Source: a bacterium | GTDB taxonomy: Bacteria > Armatimonadota > UBA5829 | Direction of reading: 5' to 3' | Assembly (NCBI GenBank): GCA_021373255.1 | Contig: JAJFTD010000036.1 | Location: 1-34,298 of the forward strand | DNA length: 34,298 nt | Shown: positions 3,236-26,824 of the stretch, in pieces | Numbering within the stretch: the stretch's first letter is position 1 | Layout: each line of letters starts with the position of its first letter | The notes under the pieces: generated by a model | The model's database searches: none | Told to the model about the DNA's origin: nothing | What the model saw: only the letters and a program-made list of their open reading frames with translations | Translations under genes and position numbers: made by a program

Positions 3236-3274
3236 CTTCGGTTGCACGCAGCCGAGGCCGTGACCGCAGGTCAC
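3236..3274 (-). repeat. Solo arm of the 190-bp inverted-repeat element
   Basis: This 39-bp stretch is the reverse complement of the right end of the 190-bp elements (arm plus the GTGACC/GGTCAC hairpin), with a single mismatch. Homology stops sharply at the hairpin edge, so only one arm remains. It lies 20 bp after the NHL gene stop codon and 204 bp before the first full copy. Confidence 0.75.
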
Positions 3275-3477: not shown

Positions 3478-3667
3478 GTTGCTTCGGTTGCATGCAGCCG
3501 AAGCCGGGTTTAAAGGACCCGCAATCACCGATCAATCCTAAACGCTGTATGTGCAGAAGAACGCATGACCATCAGGATAGTTGTTGTGCCATCTTGACAT
3601 GTGCTTATACATTACGCTATTCGCGTGACCTGCGGTCACGGCTTCGGCTGCGTGCAACCGAAGCAAC
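3478..3667 (+). repeat. 190-bp inverted-repeat (MITE-like) element, copy 1
   Basis: The ends are 27-bp inverted repeats (3478-3504 and 3641-3667) with one mismatch, starting GTTGCTTCGG and ending CCGAAGCAAC. Each arm is itself nearly palindromic around TGCATGCA or TGCGTGCA. Next to the left arm is a hairpin CGGGT/ACCCG (3505-3521); next to the right arm is a hairpin CGTGACC/GGTCACG with a TGC loop (3624-3640). Between them is a core of about 100 bp with no credible gene. A second copy at 5001-5190 has the same length and differs at 5 positions by eye. Both copies are preceded by CTCTTTT and followed by TAAA. No transposase is encoded, so movement would need one in trans. Confidence 0.85.
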
Positions 3668-3806
3668 TAAACAGAAGTTAGGTGGCGACTGCGATTTGCA
3701 TTGGGCATGGGCGATTAAGGAACTGTTTGCTGATAATGATGATGAAAAGGCTGAACAGGTATTATTTGACTTGCTTCACGAATACTTGCAGCATGATGAA
3801 ACCTGA
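3668..3806 (+). pseudogene. Possible 3' remnant of a small gene, cut by the repeat element
   Basis: Right after the element, one frame reads a well-balanced helical tail with motifs HWAWAIKELF and EQVLFDLLHEYLQ and ends in TGA at 3806. It looks like the C terminus of a real helical protein, yet the open frame upstream is only repeat DNA and there is no start codon with a ribosome site inside the fragment. I read it as a gene end separated from its start by the element at 3478-3667. I do not recognise the family. A chance open frame remains possible. Confidence 0.3.
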
Positions 3807-3814
3807 TATGCATT

Positions 3815-3842
3815 GCTTCGGGACGAAAAGCAGTCCCGAAGC
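3815..3842. repeat. Hairpin downstream of the 3870 gene
   Basis: GCTTCGGGAC (3815-3824) and GTCCCGAAGC (3833-3842) form a perfect 10-bp stem with an 8-nt loop. It starts 28 bp past the stop codon of the minus-strand gene ending at 3870 and may stabilise or terminate that transcript, although no T-run follows. Confidence 0.6.
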
Positions 3843-3869
3843 ACACAAACACAGTCTGCAGGTTGCAGC

Positions 3870-4844
3870 CTACGACTTCGGTGTTTCAGTGGTCACGGTG
3901 CACAGACTGTCACCGGTCTGGCAGTCGATGACTCGAACGCTCACCACAACAATAGCCCCTCGATCAGATATGGAACCCGTTGCTATGTATTGCGCCTTAA
4001 TAGCTGAGCCTATCTGCTTAGCAGTAGTTGCGTTAAGCGGGTTGTCAGCCTCCAGCTTGAGTTCTGCTGTAGCGAGATCCCACTGCCGATTGTCCACCAC
4101 CTTGAAACCGCTGTGAGTGCTAAGAGCTGTGGCGAGATCCTCGCGCGCATTCTTGCCTACAGCCAGATCTAGTCTCATTGACTCTTTCTCTGCTCTTAGC
4201 TCGAATGCTGATACGGCGATAGTTATACCATCACCTGACGGAACCTTGCTTGCTATCTGCTGTGCAAGATCCTGGCATACCTTGGTGCTTAGCGATATAG
4301 TGTAAGTATTCGCTGCTGGAGTCGTGGCCGTAAGCACTGCTGCATTGTTGGCGGGGTCTATCATAGTATCTTGGTCAACATAGGCCGTAAGCTCTGTGCC
4401 CTTGTTTATGGTCACATCGCGACCGTTGATGAATACGCCAACGACGGTCAACAGCGCGGCAGTGGCAAGCATTGCACCACCGTTGCCCTTGCCACTTCTA
4501 ACCTCGCTACCACGCAGGGGTATCTTTGTTCCATCTACTGCTTTTGTATAGTCGCAACTAAACTCCAATTTTCCAGACCTGCCGAACATTCCGCGTTTCT
4601 TTGTCCTAATAATATGGCCGTAGGCTGGTGTCCCCTTCGTTGCTAGTAATTCCCGGTTGGGACCGTATATGTCTTCTCTTAGCTCGAAGTTTACTTCGTC
4701 ATTGGGCTTGCCTTGCCCTGATACCAGCGTTTCCAACAGAGCAACCTTTACGGTTGTTCGCTCAGCGAGATTCACCGGCGCTGCGGACACAACCGTACAC
4801 GCAACCACCAGCATGCACACTACGAGTAATACCAAATGTTTCAT
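3870..4844 (-). CDS. Exported protein with FlgO/CsgG-like C-terminal domain
   Basis: 324 residues with a signal peptide (about 1-22, ending VVSAA). The N-terminal half (about 25-150) is a beta-rich domain of the type seen in envelope proteins (VNFELREDIY, LLATKGTPAYGHI, GRSGKLEFS), interrupted by a short hydrophobic stretch GGAMLATAALLTVVGVF. The C-terminal half (about 185-320) has the pattern of FlgO, CsgG and LpoB relatives: DLAQQIASKV, TIAVSAFEL, a helix with VGKNAREDLATAL, FKVVDNRQWDLA, then IGSAIKAQYIATGSI and VSVRVIDCQTGD. Such domains act in the envelope and help assemble other structures, but the partner here is unknown. ATG at 4844 has GGAGGG about 12 nt upstream. It is alone between repeat-rich flanks. 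Confidence 0.8.
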   Translation of the reverse strand: MKHLVLLVVCMLVVACTVVSAAPVNLAERTTVKVALLETLVSGQGKPNDEVNFELREDIYGPNRELLATKGTPAYGHIIRTKKRGMFGRSGKLEFSCDYTKAVDGTKIPLRGSEVRSGKGNGGAMLATAALLTVVGVFINGRDVTINKGTELTAYVDQDTMIDPANNAAVLTATTPAANTYTISLSTKVCQDLAQQIASKVPSGDGITIAVSAFELRAEKESMRLDLAVGKNAREDLATALSTHSGFKVVDNRQWDLATAELKLEADNPLNATTAKQIGSAIKAQYIATGSISDRGAIVVVSVRVIDCQTGDSLCTVTTETPKS

Positions 4845-4933
4845 TGATTCCTTACCCTCCCATAAAATAGTAAAGCCCGCTGCACTTCCTGAACTGCCTA
4901 AAGCAACCTAGGAACTACAACGGACTCATTCGT

Positions 4934-4942
4934 ATTATAACA
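4934..4942 (-). promoter_or_regulatory. Extended -10 promoter for the FlgO/CsgG-like gene
   Basis: On the minus strand this reads TGTTATAAT, a perfect -10 hexamer with the TGn extension, about 90 nt before the ATG. No good -35 lies at 17 bp; a TTGACA lies only 11 bp upstream, which is too close. The promoter call rests on the extended -10. Confidence 0.45.
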
Positions 4943-5000
4943 TGTCTCGGTGTCAAATACTGTCACATGCAAACACTTCTATGTTTCGGGATCTCTTTTT

Positions 5001-5190
5001 GTTGCTTCGGCTGCATGCAGCCGAAGCCGGGTCTAGAGGACCCGCAATCACCGATAAATCCTACACGCTGTATGTGCAGAAGAACGCATGACCATCAGGA
5101 TAGTTGTTGTGCCATCTTGACATGTGCTTATACATTACGCTATTCGCGTGACCTGCGGTCACGGCTTCGGCTGCGTGCAACCGAAGCAAC
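5001..5190 (+). repeat. 190-bp inverted-repeat (MITE-like) element, copy 2
   Basis: Same length and architecture as the copy at 3478-3667, in the same orientation, with 5 substitutions. Left arm 5001-5027, right arm 5164-5190. In the left hairpin two of the five changes fall together: copy 1 reads GTTTAAAGGAC where this copy reads GTCTAGAGGAC. The C in this copy extends the stem to CGGGTC/GACCCG (5028-5044). A truncated TTTCGGGATCT at 4984-4994, resembling the start of the small hairpin family, abuts the left side, so the element may have landed in or next to another repeat. Confidence 0.85.
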
Positions 5191-5251
5191 TAAAAGACAA
5201 TTCGCCATCCCATGCTTTCTGGTAACCTCCTCGCATCGATTGACACCAATT

Positions 5252-5893: not shown

Positions 5894-5964
5894 TCCTTGG
5901 AAATCCTCCAGTCGCTCTTCAGGTGTTTCCAGCTTTCCGCTCCTCTTAATCTTGCAACGCCACC

Positions 5965-6131
5965 CTAGAAACTCCCCGTCACCCCAAATTAGCTGTGCTG
6001 GCTAGAGTCGTAACCGAGCTGTAGTCCTATTCGGCCTGCTAGGTGGAGCCGGCAACCGATTAGTCCGGCTAGTTGGGCATTGGTAACCTCGCCACCGTCC
6101 CATCTCCAGCCTGTGGCGTTTGATATTTTGG
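5965..6131 (-). pseudogene. Truncated, stop-interrupted copy of the 3' end of the 11053-11850 gene
   Basis: Read on the minus strand, this stretch encodes about 52 residues alignable without gaps to the C terminus of the protein at 11053-11850 (from SNATGW to the final TGSF). About 45 of 52 positions are identical. In the motif SSQHSYFG the Tyr codon TAC has become TAA, so the copy is broken, and there is no upstream part or start codon. Homology ends right at the hairpin repeat 6131-6175. This is the leftover of a duplicated gene, probably truncated when the repeat arrived or by recombination there. Confidence 0.85.
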
Positions 6132-10965: not shown

Positions 10966-11052
10966 GTACATTTAGTGGAGTATTAAATCTTGAGGCGTAG
11001 CGATTTTGTAAGGCTAGTGTATCTAGCCGACACTTAATACCCACCACCCGCT

Positions 11053-11850
11053 CTAGAAACTCCCCGTCAACCCAAAGTAGCTGTGCTGGCTGGAGTCGTA
11101 ACCGAGTTGTAACCCTATCCGGCCTGACAAGTGGAATCGGCAGCCGATTAGACCGGCTAGTTGGGTGTTGGTGTCCTCGCCGCCATCCCATTCCCAGCCT
11201 GTGGCATTGGATACGTCCGTATACTTGGTTTTACTAGTCGCGATTCCAACCCCCAGGAGAAGTGCGGCGTTTGAGTTACCGAGGCAATATAAGCCCTGGA
11301 TACCGTAGCCTGTTTTATCGGTTTCTACATAATAATCATTGTGTGGAATAGCTGCGTGGATGGCGTCATCATCGCCGCCGAGGTTGCCTGTCGTCCAGAG
11401 CCCGATTCCCCAGCGCCGGTTGCTAATCCACTGAACGCCGAAAGCTCCTGCCTCATCGAATCCACCCGGAGCATAAACCAACGCGACGCTGTCTGTCCTT
11501 ATCGGACCGCCTCCAAAACCACTGAAGATGTTGCTCGATCCGCTGGAAGATGATTCTGTATGACTGTCGTAAACATCATAATCGTCGTGATCATGATGCT
11601 CGGTTCTGTCACGCCTTCTCTCTTCCCGTTCGACCTCGCGCCGTTTCTTCTCTTCCAGCTTGCGCTCCTCTTCCTTGCGCGCTTTTTCCTTGTCTGATTC
11701 GGCGGCCTTTGTGGCGTCTTGTGTTGTGCTGTTGGTGTTTGTCACCTCAGTGGTCTGCGCGGGCTGTTGGTCTTCGGCTGTCGCAGGTAAGGCACAGAAA
11801 ATGAGTGTAAGAGAAGCGATGAGTATTGCAGTAATGATTCCGGTTTTCAT
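11053..11850 (-). CDS. Exported protein with charged coiled coil and beta-barrel-like C terminus
   Basis: 265 residues from the ATG at 11850. I prefer this start to one 45 bp upstream because GGGAGGTG lies just before it and the protein then begins with a clean signal peptide (MKTGIITAILIAS... to PATAE). Next come a Gln/Thr/Asn stretch, a highly charged helix (KEKARKEEERKLEEKKRREVE), a His/Asp/Ser linker, and a C-terminal domain of alternating strands with Gly and aromatic residues (SVALVYAPGG, FGVQWISNRRWGIGLW, YGIQGLYCLGN, AALLLGVGIATSK, GLIGCRFHLSGRIGLQLGYDSS). It ends in Phe, as many outer-membrane barrels do. Family unknown; an outer-membrane or surface role is inferred. A broken copy of its 3' end lies at 5965-6131. 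Confidence 0.75.
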   Translation of the reverse strand: MKTGIITAILIASLTLIFCALPATAEDQQPAQTTEVTNTNSTTQDATKAAESDKEKARKEEERKLEEKKRREVEREERRRDRTEHHDHDDYDVYDSHTESSSSGSSNIFSGFGGGPIRTDSVALVYAPGGFDEAGAFGVQWISNRRWGIGLWTTGNLGGDDDAIHAAIPHNDYYVETDKTGYGIQGLYCLGNSNAALLLGVGIATSKTKYTDVSNATGWEWDGGEDTNTQLAGLIGCRFHLSGRIGLQLGYDSSQHSYFGLTGSF

Positions 11851-24610: not shown

Positions 24611-24767
24611 GTTGCTTCGGACCGCGAAGCTGCCGAAGCCGGCCTCGAAGAGGCCGAAAAGACCACGTTTCGCATAGTTTACAGGCTTGGTCTACCACTG
24701 ATACGTTGTTTCGCCGCCTTCGGCGGCGGCTTCGGCAGCTCCGCTCCACTCCGCAGTCCGAAGCAAC
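24611..24767. repeat. 157-bp inverted-repeat element, divergent relative of the 190-bp element
   Basis: The ends are GTTGCTTCGGAC (24611-24622) and GTCCGAAGCAAC (24756-24767), a perfect 12-bp inverted repeat with the same first and last 10 bases as the 190-bp elements. A second perfect 13-bp arm follows (24628-24640 with 24728-24740). Inside lie two hairpins placed as in the 190-bp elements: GGCCTC/GAGGCC next to the left arm (24641-24655) and CGCCGCC/GGCGGCG next to the right arm (24712-24728). The core is different and shorter. No open frame here is convincing. The flanks 24532-24610 and 24768-24879 hold nothing more than a tandem ACCTGTC near 24845. Confidence 0.75.
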
Positions 24768-26594: not shown

Positions 26595-26662
26595 CATGCG
26601 GTAGGTAGGTTAAATCTGCTTAATAGGTAGCAGCATGAAGGAGCACTTAACGCGCTCATGAT

Positions 26663-26824
26663 AGGTGGCGATCTCCGAATCGCCACCTCAAGGCCAAGAA
26701 TGGGGTCTCCGAACCCCAAAACCTGTGCCGAAGAAACCGGATTCGGAGATCCGGCATTAGCTGTGGGGAGGCGATTCGGAGATCGCCTCCAATCAAGCCA
26801 TTCGGAGATCGCCTCCCATCAAGC
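26663..26824. repeat. Cluster of hairpins sharing the loop CTCCGA/TCGGAG
   Basis: Four perfect hairpins have different stems but the same 6-base loop (read on one strand or the other): 26663-26688 (10-bp stem AGGTGGCGAT), 26701-26718 (6-bp TGGGGT), 26737-26754 (6-bp CCGGAT), and 26767-26790 (9-bp GGAGGCGAT). The right half of the last one is repeated in tandem with a 26-bp period (26774-26798 and 26800-26824, one mismatch). The whole gap 26595-26927 has no gene. Confidence 0.8.

Follow-up and report, generated by a model that had tools for sequence, protein, structure and literature searches.

The window, a stretch of 34,298 nt from an Armatimonadota genome (G000; 4.19 Mb in 201 contigs), carries two copies of a 190-bp element that we interpret, with a probability of roughly 0.86, as a miniature non-autonomous transposable element (REPIN/MITE-like), formed by a 411-bp internal deletion of a 601-bp end-RAYT-end element and later copied by the RAYT in trans. 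Copy 1 (3478-3667) and copy 2 (5001-5190) both lie on the minus strand, given here as the orientation of the transposase gene, and both are located between recognisable genes. Each is exactly 190 bp long and they differ at five positions. The two 27-nt arms repeat each other in inverted orientation (one mismatch in copy 1, two in copy 2); each arm is itself nearly palindromic and is adjoined on its inner side by a separate 17-nt hairpin, so that each end is a two-hairpin module. On the left (gene-start) side, hairpin 1 (GTTGCTTCGG...CCGAAGC) occupies 3641-3667 (5164-5190 in copy 2) and inner hairpin 2 (CGTGACCGCAGGTCACG) occupies 3624-3640 (5147-5163). On the right, inner hairpin 2, of the CGGGT..ACCCG type, is found at 3505-3521 (5028-5044) and hairpin 1 at 3478-3504 (5001-5027), all on the minus strand. 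When folded as DNA, the whole strand reached -47.9 kcal/mol compared with -27.7 ± 3.3 kcal/mol by chance (z = -6.1), whereas the 100-nt core folded alone was not above chance (z = +1.1); structure is therefore confined to the ends. This layout of equal lengths, five differences, 27-bp inverted arms, near-palindromic arms and separate inner hairpins had been described in an earlier sequence-only reading and was borne out. The plus strand at 3236-3274 also holds a lone, decayed left-end module; it is of the same class and matches the end of the 190-bp element at 97%.

Read on the minus strand, the core consists of the first ~24 codons of a RAYT gene joined to the 3′ end of that gene, and the element family was identified from these two joined ends. 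The remnant of the gene start (MYKHMSRWHNNYPDGHAFFCTYSV, then a stop) spans 3540-3612 in copy 1 and about 5063-5135 in copy 2. Stops differ between copies and the start is lost in some, so the remnant peptide is not conserved. The earlier statement that no transposase is encoded is hence correct but incomplete, as the core is itself what is left of a transposase gene.

A candidate parent was found in the same genome. Contig C118 carries the same left end as the 190-bp copies, followed by an open RAYT frame up to the contig end; contig C102 starts with the same 64 nt as the end of C118 and continues through the last codons of the gene and the right end. Joined through this 64-nt overlap, the two give a 601-bp unit encoding a RAYT of 163 aa. 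This apparent autonomous relative with the same ends, which the sequence-only reading had proposed searching for, is pieced together from two contig ends with no contig spanning both, and its halves may derive from different copies. Alignment of the copies to the 601-bp unit revealed a single deletion site at which 411 bp are missing, making the short form, as in a MITE, an internal-deletion derivative with ends common to a larger element. The deletion sits between CGTACAGGATTGGTCG and CGTGCAGGGTTGATCG, imperfect 16-nt direct repeats identical at 13 of 16 positions, with the junction at 3529-3544 (5052-5067 in copy 2; minus strand). Every copy in which the site is readable has it at the same place, and the junction reads either GGATTG or GGGTTG. 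Contiguous end-RAYT-end elements were found on contig C139 of this genome (660 bp), in G017 (610 bp), in G018 of the same order (607 bp; L081, contig JAUSEB010000092.1) and in G005 of the same family (607 bp; L114, contig JAPLCU010000129.1). Inverted repeats thus bracket the RAYT gene in four contiguous cases as well as in C118/C102.

The 163-aa protein matched the NCBIfam model for REP-associated tyrosine transposases (NF047646) with E = 2e-20 and 73 bits, just below the curated cut-off of 80. Its match to the IS200 model NF033573 was E = 0.08 (13 bits, cut-off 55), and it is not of the IS200 type (subclass 1.1, Y---Q). Among solved structures the top match was E. coli TnpA_REP (4er8, E = 4e-9). 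An alignment of five proteins showed invariant HxH and YxHxNP motifs, as found in Y1/HUH transposases of the RAYT class (HuH, Y---NP motif). The C-terminal HTH domain of the TIRtron subclass 2.1 was sought in the RAYTs of 158-163 aa, and only Y1_Tnp matched.

Searching the genome recovered five complete copies of the 190-bp element (two in the window, which is contig C26, two on C130 and one on C140), all of them inverted pairs of constant length, and two partial copies (C127, cut by the contig end; C168, truncated), while the matches on C118 and C102 are the two halves of the longer element. The copies are spread over at least five contigs. Their number is low, a point against the favoured reading. 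The two complete copies on C26 are 1.5 kb apart and the two on C130 are 0.8 kb apart, in each case in the same orientation, and likeness is greater within these pairs than between them; such close pairs may reflect local copying or conversion. Had only the two window copies existed, the sequence-only reading would have favoured a single local duplication; three further complete copies, two partial ones and the two parent halves lie elsewhere in the genome. The full element was found in none of the 60 relatives searched, in which the recurring sequence was the end module, and the one longer match (in G017) was the start of a complete RAYT element. No such ends were found in viral contigs. The RAYT-start motif occurs 10 times in this genome, whereas none of 290 other genomes of the phylum has more than two matches, so the burst is seen only here.

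The left flank, in gene orientation, is TTTA in 7/7 readable copies (TAAA on the window strand, at 3668-3671 and 5191-5194), with a frequency of TTTA of 0.003 per position, and the right flanks are mostly A-rich and variable. Apart from TTTA and other small dispersed repeats, the flanks share no homology, and we infer from these two observations that the copies were inserted independently. In one respect the element departs from a MITE: no target-site duplication was found in the flanks of the copies, TTTA being on the left only. Taken together, the flanks favour independent insertion events that show a sequence preference and produce no target duplication. TTTA was not seen beside complete elements of the other end classes, and it is therefore either class-specific or inside the element. 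An empty site was also sought and none was found, the region having no alignable counterpart in four genomes of the same genus. The earlier proposal of a non-autonomous mobile element agrees with the dispersed copies, their unrelated flanks, the constant one-sided TTTA and the apparent autonomous relative. Its suggestion that one insertion had hit a gene just after copy 1 found no support: the 45-codon tail has no homologue in the 60 relatives and the reading frame has no Pfam match.

The end module belongs to a wider family. Exact matches to the end pattern numbered 65 in G000, 136 in G005, 65 in G017, 51 in G018, 8 in G004 and 1 in G010, with none in the remaining 13 genomes of the order and 0-1 with the reversed pattern as a control; named records with the pattern were mostly from Armatimonadota, and GTTG two-hairpin ends with matching RAYTs also occur in other members of this phylum. 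G005, G017, G018 and G004 each have one closely matching RAYT and their own loop class, and G000 has three end classes with three RAYTs. End class thus agrees with the RAYT of each genome, and in G018, G017, G000 and G005 (51-136 exact ends) the repeats are dispersed with one class per RAYT. Covariation in the inner hairpin is strong: of 43 distinct stem sequences, 34 pair completely at three variable positions, with 16 different triplets, whereas 2000 shuffles never gave more than 10. Covariation, which the sequence-only reading had suggested looking for in the core, was found in the inner hairpins of the ends. As in a REPIN, the inverted repeat pair is the copied unit in class A, which is dispersed as paired 190-bp elements; classes B and C occur mostly as single ends. 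The tetranucleotide at the hairpin foot is GTTG, which the search pattern itself required and which a relaxed pattern also returned at the far end of the class-C unit on contig C9. The ends were tested for GT[AG]G and carry GTTG in its place, so they are not canonical REPs. The 190-bp element would work like a REPIN, though not as a canonical REP.

Several related elements were observed alongside this family. The class-C RAYT of G000 is frameshifted and lacks the HxH motif (C9:28167-28811, L192:1501-2145; a 645-bp unit with PEHYQ in place of HxH); nine class-C ends are present in the genome, and this RAYT is apparently in decay. A 184-bp element with class-C-like ends on C155 (23177-23360; L230:1001-1184) has a core with a RAYT-like start, of which 36 nt read MSRWHNHYSDGW, but its alignment there with the class-C RAYT unit covers no more than 19 nt; a second, independent remnant-bearing miniature is possible, and the match is suggestive only. 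The window also holds a 157-bp sister element with class-B ends (24611-24767), whose core is not recognisably derived from a transposase. This class-B two-ended element has seven copies of 148-158 bp in the genome (L193, L201, L204, L205, L208, L218, L227) with conserved flanks AGCCGACGGACATA / CTCAGTTTGCTCGC, and the orientation of the core relative to the flanks is opposite in some copies (L193 vs L208), as if inverted through the arms.

Other repeats in the window include a small dispersed hairpin family (TGTTTCGGGA...TCCCGAA) at 2147, 5255, 6135, 13429 and 26835; this family has many genomic copies, with some also present in G004, and may be an additional REP class served by a transposase of its own. 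Two 166-nt direct repeats (5960-6125 and 11048-11213), 84% alike, adjoin neighbouring minus-strand genes. A cluster of inverted and direct repeats of the GGCGATTCGGAGATCGCC type lies at 26659-26822, and a similar motif is present in G011 (L025).

Origin by deletion, dispersal and site preference can be read from the sequence comparisons themselves, and mobilisation in trans by a RAYT is the most likely route of spread. The 601-bp end-RAYT-end element would have lost its internal 411 bp while keeping the hairpin ends recognised by the enzyme, after which the 190-bp form would have been copied to new sites with the RAYT supplied in trans. By analogy with the single-strand action of IS200/IS605 and E. 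coli TnpA_REP, the Y1/HUH transposase would bind the folded single-stranded ends (GTTG plus hairpin) and cut next to them, and the element would be joined after TTTA without target duplication. Those TnpA_REP enzymes that have been tested act on repeats tagged with GTAG, cutting at CT or CA (PMC8266576), so the cut site at GTTG ends is not confidently predictable. With GTTG substituted for GTAG, the Stenotrophomonas enzyme no longer cleaved, and the E. coli enzyme tolerated no GTAG mutation (PMC8266576). Given this dependence, the GTTG ends count against copying by a RAYT in trans.

Other explanations were weighed against this reading. The 190-bp form could have been made repeatedly, by deletion between the same 16-nt repeats in separate full-length copies, without the short form ever having transposed. 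The 13/16 likeness of the junction repeats means that the deletion could recur, and the junction does differ among copies; however, this would require several full-length insertions to lose the same 411 bp, only one class-A full-length parent is seen, and the similarity within pairs (1 difference on C130 and 5 on C26) is more easily explained by copying of the short form. We therefore regard it as unlikely. Those same near pairs in one orientation are what local or segmental duplication of a single sequence would produce, but homology stops at the element ends, the flanks of paired copies are unrelated except for TTTA and dispersed repeats, and copies lie on at least five contigs, which makes duplication in place of transposition very improbable.

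A structured regulatory RNA or DNA module (riboswitch-like, terminator-like or an attenuator), kept for a host function and spread by chance, would fit the strong hairpins at both ends and the position of both copies between recognisable genes. The sequence-only reading had also entertained a structured module. An Rfam scan of the window gave no match, the core is unstructured and consists of decayed transposase coding sequence with stops that differ among copies, and the flanks are unrelated; this explanation is already largely refuted and we consider it improbable. The 27-bp terminal inverted repeats resemble ordinary MITE ends and could belong to a different (DDE) transposase, with the RAYT remnant captured by chance, yet in four genomes intact RAYTs lie between these same ends, similarly spaced, with end classes corresponding to the RAYT, and there is no target-site duplication, so that a DDE origin is scarcely credible.

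The miniature RAYT-derived element that we favour resembles several known systems. Like REPINs in REP-RAYT (REPtron) systems (Nunvar 2010, PMC2817692; Bertels and Rainey 2011, PMC3116915), it is a dispersed inverted pair of palindromic ends, every class has a Y1 transposase of its own that lies between those same ends, and movement is thought to occur in trans. It differs in having GTTG in place of GT[AG]G and two hairpins per end, and in a spacer that is a recognisable remnant of the transposase gene, so that the element still resembles its parent's deletion derivative. TIRtrons (Di Nocera 2013, PMC3733652) similarly comprise RAYT-like genes (TIRYTs) bracketed by long inverted repeats, some of which are double palindromes and some of which form small dispersed families (PMC3733652); however, most TIRYTs are longer subclass 2.1 proteins with a C-terminal HTH (PMC6006769), in contrast to the 163 aa without such a match here, and the ends of the 190-bp element lack the GGGGWSAS motif. 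Insertion-sequence MITEs are likewise short and parent-dependent, with inverted ends and a mostly deleted transposase gene, but the 190-bp element has no target-site duplication and its parent encodes a Y1/HUH single-strand enzyme, not DDE. With IS200/IS605 it shares a Y1/HUH transposase, hairpin ends and insertion beside a fixed tetranucleotide without duplication, although the transposase fits the RAYT model and not IS200, the ends are true inverted repeats and the Y motif is YxHxNP.

RAYTs flanked by repeats or by double-palindrome TIRs, as well as REPINs as miniature elements, are already known (PMC2817692, PMC3116915, PMC3733652, PMC6006769). No REPIN whose core is a RAYT remnant was found in the literature searched, with subscription journals and preprints outside its coverage. 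How REPINs evolved was described as unknown by Bertels and Rainey (2011), who proposed, but did not show, an origin from repeats flanking an ancestral autonomous element (PMC3116915). The present elements bear on this open question of the origin of bacterial REPs and REPINs, as the genome still holds the apparent parent: the intermediate is visible, since a single genome contains apparent parent, deletion derivative and derived copies, and the position of the deletion can be narrowed to a 16-nt repeat. They also bring Armatimonadota, with a GTTG two-hairpin end, into the range of RAYT-associated repeats, and provide a new end/RAYT pair for testing how the tetranucleotide guides cleavage. We tentatively suggest, at somewhat less than even odds, that this is a REPIN caught soon after birth, which would be direct sequence evidence that such elements can form when an end-RAYT-end transposon loses its interior, here in a lineage where the RAYT unit may have remained mobile and not become domesticated.
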